Positions 46,545 to 47,506 of a DNA stretch of 64,000 nt are shown in pieces. Both the position numbers and the translations under genes were made by a program. Origin of the DNA: Bacteroidales bacterium (lineage in GTDB: Bacteria > Bacteroidota > Bacteroidia > Bacteroidales > F082); NCBI GenBank assembly GCA_013141455.1, contig JABFQW010000092.1:1-64000 (forward strand). The letters run 5' to 3'. Each line of letters starts with the position of its first letter. The first letter of the stretch is position 1. The notes beneath the pieces were generated by a model. The model had not been told where the DNA came from and searched no databases. It worked only from the letters and a program-made list of their open reading frames with translations.

Positions 46545-47111
46545 CTATCTTTTCTTCTGAATTTCCTTGCACAGCTGCTTGTACCATTCCTCACCAAACC
46601 TACGAATCAGTGGTTCTTTCAGGAATTTATACAAGGGGACGCCTTCTTTGTTTCCCTTACGGATAGCCGGAACACAAATACTCCACTGGTGATAGTTGAT
46701 ATGGGTAAAGCCATCTTTCTGAAGCAGCCGGACAGGATACAGGTGACAACTGATGGGTTTTTTGAAATCGATTTTGCCTGCGAGAAATGATTTTTCGATG
46801 GCGCAGAAACTTGTTCCGTTATCATGAAAACCGGCAAATGCACAGGCGCTGCCATTTACCAATGGTGTAACCAGGTTACCCATTTCATCGTAATCATACA
46901 CGCCATCTGTTTCAACCACCTTTATCCCATCTGCTATCATAAACGGTTTAATATCATCAAGATAGTCTTCGAGGAGTGAGATTTCATTCTCTTCAAGTGG
47001 AGCGCCTGCATCACCGCTCACACAGCAATCGCCCTTGCAGCGGGGCAAATCGCAAACAAATTGTGCCTGAATAAAGGCTTCGCTAACAATAGTATCGTTT
47101 ATAAAAATCAT
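46545..47111 (-). CDS. DUF3109 family cysteine-rich protein
   Basis: Protein of 188 residues, soluble. Cysteines sit in VCDLPRCKGDCCVSGDAG near the N-terminus and in SACAFAG, SFCAIEKSF, PISCHLYPVR and SICVPA, a pattern of the DUF3109/YkgJ group thought to bind iron-sulfur or zinc. The function is unknown. Its C-terminal end abuts the word repeat; the upstream region (47112-47180) shows no clear promoter. Confidence 0.85.
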   Translation of the reverse strand: MIFINDTIVSEAFIQAQFVCDLPRCKGDCCVSGDAGAPLEENEISLLEDYLDDIKPFMIADGIKVVETDGVYDYDEMGNLVTPLVNGSACAFAGFHDNGTSFCAIEKSFLAGKIDFKKPISCHLYPVRLLQKDGFTHINYHQWSICVPAIRKGNKEGVPLYKFLKEPLIRRFGEEWYKQLCKEIQKKR

Positions 47112-47256: not shown

Positions 47257-47264
47257 TAATTTTG
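47257..47264 (+). promoter_or_regulatory. Candidate ancestral argF -7 element (TAATTTTG)
   Basis: TAATTTTG fits TAnnTTTG. It ends 11 nt before the insertion at 47276. Removing the insertion and one target copy would bring it to about 56 nt from the argF start, a normal distance; at present the leader would be about 240 nt. Confidence 0.45.
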
Positions 47265-47275
47265 CTACCAAATAT

Positions 47276-47451
47276 CAATGTCGTTTAGTTAATAGAAAAC
47301 GTTGAAAATTTAACCGCAGAGTTCCGCAAAGTTTTATGCAGAGTTCCGCAGAGTTGTATAACAATTATTGACTCTGCGGTACTTTGCGCCTCCTCAGCGA
47401 TCTTTGCGGTAAAAACTTTTAAAATTCAAAATCCTTAACTAAACGACATTG
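47276..47451. mobile_element. MITE-like insertion, 176 bp, with 17-bp TIRs and 10-bp TSD
   Basis: Perfect 17-bp inverted ends CAATGTCGTTTAGTTAA (47276-47292) and TTAACTAAACGACATTG (47435-47451). They are flanked immediately by identical 10-bp direct repeats TACCAAATAT (47266-47275 and 47452-47461), the signature of transposition. The inside is a long imperfect hairpin made of CCGCAGAG and CCGCAAAG words, including a 9-bp stem 47346-47354/47371-47379. There is no coding capacity, so it must be mobilised in trans. It lies between a promoter-like element and argF. Confidence 0.85.
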
Positions 47452-47506
47452 TACCAAATATTAGAATTGACACTAAATATTATTATTAACAAAACACATT
47501 ATTCGT

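Follow-up and report, generated by a model that had tools for sequence, protein, structure and literature searches.

Between a divergent DUF3109 gene and argF, the analysed window, a 64,000-nt stretch of a Bacteroidales draft genome, contains a non-coding inverted repeat 3′ of a TAnnTTTG promoter-like box. The locus raises the question of whether this repeat is a regulatory structure belonging to argF or an inserted mobile element and, in the latter case, which kind of transposase moved it and chose its target.

The element at argF

The element is 176 bp long (47276–47451); 142 nt separate its two 17-bp arms, which are complementary at 17/17 bp (100%). The 10-bp sequence TACCAAATAT abuts it directly on either side as a perfect direct repeat, and the ORF list contains no frame of at least 80 aa inside it. 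The initial annotation had described a non-coding unit of this length with perfect 17-bp inverted ends and a 10-bp direct flanking repeat; its coordinates were correct to the base. The features of the locus are listed in Table 1.

Table 1. Features of the argF locus (window positions)
Feature	Position	Strand	Basis
Divergent neighbour gene, DUF3109 (PF11307)	46545..47111	-	domain search
TAATTTTG, TAnnTTTG-type promoter-like box of argF	47257..47264	+	sequence, conserved in three congeners; putative function
Left TSD copy TACCAAATAT	47266..47275	.	10-bp target duplication, sequence
Presumed argF leader with the element inserted, predicted to form a long hairpin	47269..47506	+	fold; putative transcript start
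Left TIR CAATGTCGTTTAGTTAA, class A	47276..47292	+	inverted-repeat and end-pattern searches
Interior, CCGCAGAG/CTCTGCGG words	47293..47434	.	common to 15 end-bounded copies in the genome
Right TIR	47435..47451	-	exact reverse complement of the left TIR
Right TSD copy TACCAAATAT	47452..47461	.	10-bp target duplication, sequence
argF-type carbamoyltransferase, 333 aa	47507..48508	+	OTCace and OTCace_N domains

The argF upstream regions of three congeners (G001, G002 and G003) align to the window minus the element and one duplication, and in this alignment the element is absent from all three. The TAATTTTG box, located 2 nt before the target duplication in the window, is kept in the congeners, and the A/T-rich stretch 5′ of the start codon is largely kept; the distance from box to start codon in the uninterrupted state is about 50–60 nt. 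The proposal that the element separates the box from argF was confirmed, and the comparison with relatives suggested at that time refuted conservation of the element upstream of argF in these congeners. Short, non-coding, present in many copies, bounded by TIRs and a TSD and matched by empty sites, the element has the properties of a MITE.

Judging from the TAnnTTTG promoter type of Bacteroidota, transcription would start 5–7 nt past the box, giving an argF leader of about 237 nt with the insertion, in agreement with the value of about 240 nt and the long hairpin anticipated earlier. The region 47269–47506 is predicted to fold at −68.8 kcal/mol (z −8.6), a stability owed mainly to the inverted-repeat nature of the element. 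In the fold model, the final 25 nt upstream of the start codon are unpaired; within the element, only the minus strand contains a terminator-like site.

A conserved cis-regulatory RNA (attenuator or riboswitch) belonging to argF would also be expected to lie in the presumed leader and to have a very stable predicted fold, as the hairpin does. However, the element is missing from the argF leaders of the three congeners and is present at many unrelated loci, each with its own duplication, and the argF element region has no match in Rfam. An ancestral regulatory RNA of argF is refuted by these observations, and an argF-specific RNA of any such kind is extremely improbable. It is possible, but rather unlikely, that the MITE has been recruited secondarily and alters argF expression, for instance through a more stable mRNA or through less transcription across the leader. 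Its location directly after a promoter-like box and its strong predicted structure are consistent with such a role, and published MITEs affect neighbouring genes (PMC10969869). Against it, the terminator-like site faces the minus strand and the sequence adjacent to the start codon is unaltered, so the insertion may be neutral.

Copies, interiors and nested inserts

In the 4.39-Mb draft genome, a search with the whole element revealed about twenty relatives; the genome-wide statements made here are based on searches and the loci fetched with them. The 16-mer AATGTCGTTTAGTTAA has 61 matches in the genome at no more than two mismatches, compared with 13 for a reversed control pattern, and the matches mostly stand as inverted pairs. 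After pairing, 26 end-bounded elements were obtained, most of them carrying target duplications of about 10 bp. They comprise 21 elements with ends of class A (..GTCGTTTAG..), to which the window element belongs, and five with variant ends of class B (..GTCATTAAG..). A perfect 10-bp flanking repeat accompanies 11 of the 21 class-A pairs and a repeat with one mismatch a further seven; the resulting fraction (18/21 with at most one mismatch) is slightly inflated by the admission of elements to the list on end or flank similarity, while the chance expectation for such a 10-mer match is about 3 in 100,000. The excess and pairing of the matches, together with the flanking repeats, indicate that the element ends are not a product of chance. 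The search for further copies recommended in the initial annotation was productive, yielding many elements with the same ends and with duplications at unrelated loci. In the nearest copy (L002), 140 of 142 aligned interior positions are identical, apart from a 20-bp insert; this near-identity suggests fairly recent activity of the MITE.

The CCGCAGAG interior is found in 15 of the 26 end-bounded elements. The others possess unrelated interiors, including a CTTCGACTTCGCTCAG...CTGAGCGAAGTCGAAG hairpin and a CTGACAGGACC type. Elements of about 123–148 bp at six loci of the same genome (L033, L035, L037, L039, L043 and L049) have class-A ends and are flanked by 10-bp duplications; their interior is made of the CTTCGACTTCGCTCAG...CTGAGCGAAGTCGAAG hairpin word, a further style of dispersed repeat.

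Words of the CCGCAGAG type also occur in this genome separately from these ends (L022, L023 and L025), so the MITE is not responsible for all of them. Inverted repeats of CCGCAGAG/CTCTGCGG words lacking IS4-type ends are located at about 1500–1600 of L025 and about 430–600 of L023, which implies one or more further carriers or origins for this style of repeat. The earlier description of an interior of such words bounded by transposon ends holds for the MITE and does not extend to the end-free words.

Two short sequences are nested in the MITE interiors. The 20-bp near-palindrome CCTGCCTGGCGGCAGACAGG, present at about 20 places in the genome, is inserted at several interior positions with no target duplication (0-based positions 1628 in L002, 1551 in L014, 1623 in L015, 1628 in L016, 1628 in L017, 1608 and 1648 in L019, and 212 in L119). 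The Y1 (IS200/REP-type) transposases of the genome were considered as its source and rejected, since none of the six carries the palindrome within 1.5 kb. A second insert of about 24 bp, CGGTGCAGTGAGYTTACCGAACTG, occupies one fixed interior position in three copies (0-based 1607 in L009, 1570 in L010 and 1592 in L014).

Cognate transposases and the probable mobilisation of the MITE

Searches of the host's own draft genome found no transposase with matching ends. A DDE transposase on contig C130 was rejected as the mobiliser, as the element ends were not found on that contig; the ends were likewise found at none of the examined loci of IS4-type transposases (NF033592 matches) from the host family. 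In a genome from another family of the same order (G031), elements of 756 and 956 bp have the exact ends and still contain remnants of an IS4-type transposase. A collection scan identified complete class-A IS of 1476–1500 bp, with ends at 0–2 mismatches, in other Bacteroidota MAGs. Three of these (L160, L162 and L163) are flanked by exact 10-bp duplications, as is another complete class-A IS, L220; the transposase frame is interrupted in L160 and has one stop in L220. The complete IS with ends identical to those of the MITE (L160, L163 and others) were found in other genomes, so that the call for a transposase with matching 17-bp ends was answered by complete IS in other MAGs and not in the host draft. 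Two contigs of a further genome (G010) break 38–55 bp inside such an element, sharing the flank AATAATATTC, and the lack of an IS in a draft genome is accordingly unsurprising.

The published description of the IS4 subgroup includes a Y(2)R(3)E(6)K signature, D(60-110)D(100-150)E spacing, ends of the form -AATR--------WTW----, a length of 1400–1650 bp and duplications of 10–13 bp (PMC2266710). The intact transposases of the cognate IS, class A included, carry this signature (e.g., YHYRWQEEEAYKLLK); A160, with its frame change, was left unscored. The transposase of L155, the one tested, scores above the NF033592 cut-off. The DDE spacers are 76–82/109 residues in class A and 74/106–107 residues in class B, with a value of 74/95, just under the published range, in B229. 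The cognate IS are 1408–1500 bp long, most intact copies have exact 10-bp duplications (the exceptions are L155, L156, L157 and L228), and both CAATGTCGTTTAGTTAA and CAATGTCATTAAGTTAA, a class-B end, fit the end pattern. On these sequence features, the cognate IS are assigned to the IS4 subgroup of the IS4 family (PMC2266710). In their ends, length (1.41–1.50 kb), 10-bp duplications, DDE spacing and YREK signature, they resemble the IS described for this subgroup (PMC2266710), whereas the window element has no transposase gene. The MITE interior shows no recognisable likeness to the IS beyond the ends and so gives no sign that the element arose from this IS through internal deletion.

The ends, the duplication, the other copies, the empty sites in congeners and the autonomous IS that agree with it in their ends and in the length of the duplication were observed directly, and from them the element is most likely a MITE mobilised in trans by transposases of the IS4 subgroup. 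With high confidence, the feature at argF can be regarded as a 176-bp MITE that a class-A transposase of this subgroup, recognising its 17-bp ends, cut and pasted into TACCAAATAT downstream of the argF promoter. A class-A transposase would have cut the element from another site and pasted it into this AT-rich target, just 3′ of the promoter, a 10-bp staggered cut giving rise to the 10-bp duplication. Such a transposase presumably acted in trans in this lineage, and its gene was either lost later or lies outside the assembled part of the draft. The argF gene would still be transcribed from the old promoter, with its leader lengthened by 186 nt and containing a stable hairpin, and its translation would be little affected because the unpaired A/U-rich stretch by the start codon is intact. 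Alternatively, the ends may resemble those of the IS4 subgroup through common descent, the element having been moved by a different, unseen transposase. The mobiliser is indeed not seen in the host genome, but both ends match complete IS4-subgroup elements at 17/17 positions, and the length of the duplication and the type of target agree as well, which makes this explanation very improbable.

End classes, target choice and relation to known elements

Class-B ends, CAATGTCATTAAGTTAA or close to it, occur in five copies in the host genome and six in congeners. The 10-mers flanking class-A elements have a mean GC of 0.19 and a palindromic consensus near AATYATRATT, whereas those flanking class-B elements (e.g., ATCGCTCGGC, ACCGCGCGAA and AGCGCGCGCG) are GC-rich, with a mean GC of 0.72 (35 versus 11 sites; Mann–Whitney p = 7e-7). 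The GC content of the flanking DNA differs far less between the classes than that of the targets (0.31 versus 0.44). With the element removed, class-B targets are predicted to fold more strongly than class-A targets (−14.5 versus −6.1 kcal/mol), and a simple stem score centred on the class-B target exceeds that of local controls (p = 2e-5), an effect to which GC content contributes and which some sites do not show. Autonomous class-B IS with exact 10-bp duplications were found at L226, L227, L229, L233, L237 and L238; ACCGCGCGAA is the target 10-mer of both the IS at L227 and the MITE copy at L115. The four copies in one complete genome (G391) are located in sites that mostly form hairpins. 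In each class, MITEs and IS share their type of target, AT-rich and palindromic for class A, GC-rich and often hairpin-forming for class B. The transposases of the two classes are only distantly similar (about 31% identity).

A tree of the interiors shows a broad split into A-type and B-type interiors, and some MITE interiors appear to be recombined between their left and right parts. In copy L115, class-B ends and a GC-rich target go together with an interior that is largely A-type; in L123, class-A ends and an AT-rich target accompany an interior of the B type. The CCGCAGAG interior is found with both end classes, and the target goes with the end, not with the interior. The simplest reading of these sequences, drawn from few recombinant copies, is a choice in two steps, in which the transposase would be selected by the ends and the target by the transposase. 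A broader proposal is somewhat short of an even chance: within a single genus, the same repeat family may be mobilised by two distant IS4-subgroup transposases, about two positions of the 17-bp ends deciding which, and hence whether AT-rich palindromic or GC-rich hairpin-like sites are entered; the ends would be swapped between copies by recombination, so that dispersed CCGCAGAG-type repeats of Bacteroidota could hitch-hike on any IS that happens to be active.

In a genome from another family of the order (G028; L201 1501–2000, L205, L207, L210 and L212), class-B ends, again with GC-rich flanks, enclose GCCCTTTCAGGGC and AAGGCGTTGCC words that make up an unrelated interior, representing a second non-autonomous family on class-B ends.

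Mobile insertion cassettes such as MIC231, associated with the IS231 subgroup of the IS4 family in the Bacillus cereus group, have ends beginning with CAT and may carry genes. Like the window element, MIC231 is non-autonomous on IS4-family ends; it differs in the ends themselves, and the window element carries no gene. BrickBuilt, MITEPgRS and other MITEs of Porphyromonas gingivalis have ends matching IS5-family ISPg elements (PMC4596501); they are also Bacteroidales MITEs with ends matching IS, in their case resident IS, but those ends are of the IS5 family and not of the IS4 family. The IS4-family element ISRm22, assigned to the IS4Sa subgroup (PMC2266710), inserts into extragenic palindromes, targeting REP elements (PMC1525189). 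This palindrome targeting is comparable to the use of GC-rich, often hairpin-forming sites by class B, although the class-B sites share CG-rich symmetry and no one common repeat, and the window copy is of class A.

A partial literature search found no paper describing these elements, which form a new MITE family of an ordinary kind, most likely driven by the IS4 subgroup and having a two-class end system. One class of the common non-coding Bacteroidales repeats of the CCGCAGAG and CTTCGACTTCGCTCAG types is explained in this way as passengers of IS4-subgroup transposases. The family also provides a natural end-swap, one and the same cargo entering two kinds of target with two different ends, and argF exemplifies a gene parted from its native promoter by a structured transposon leader.
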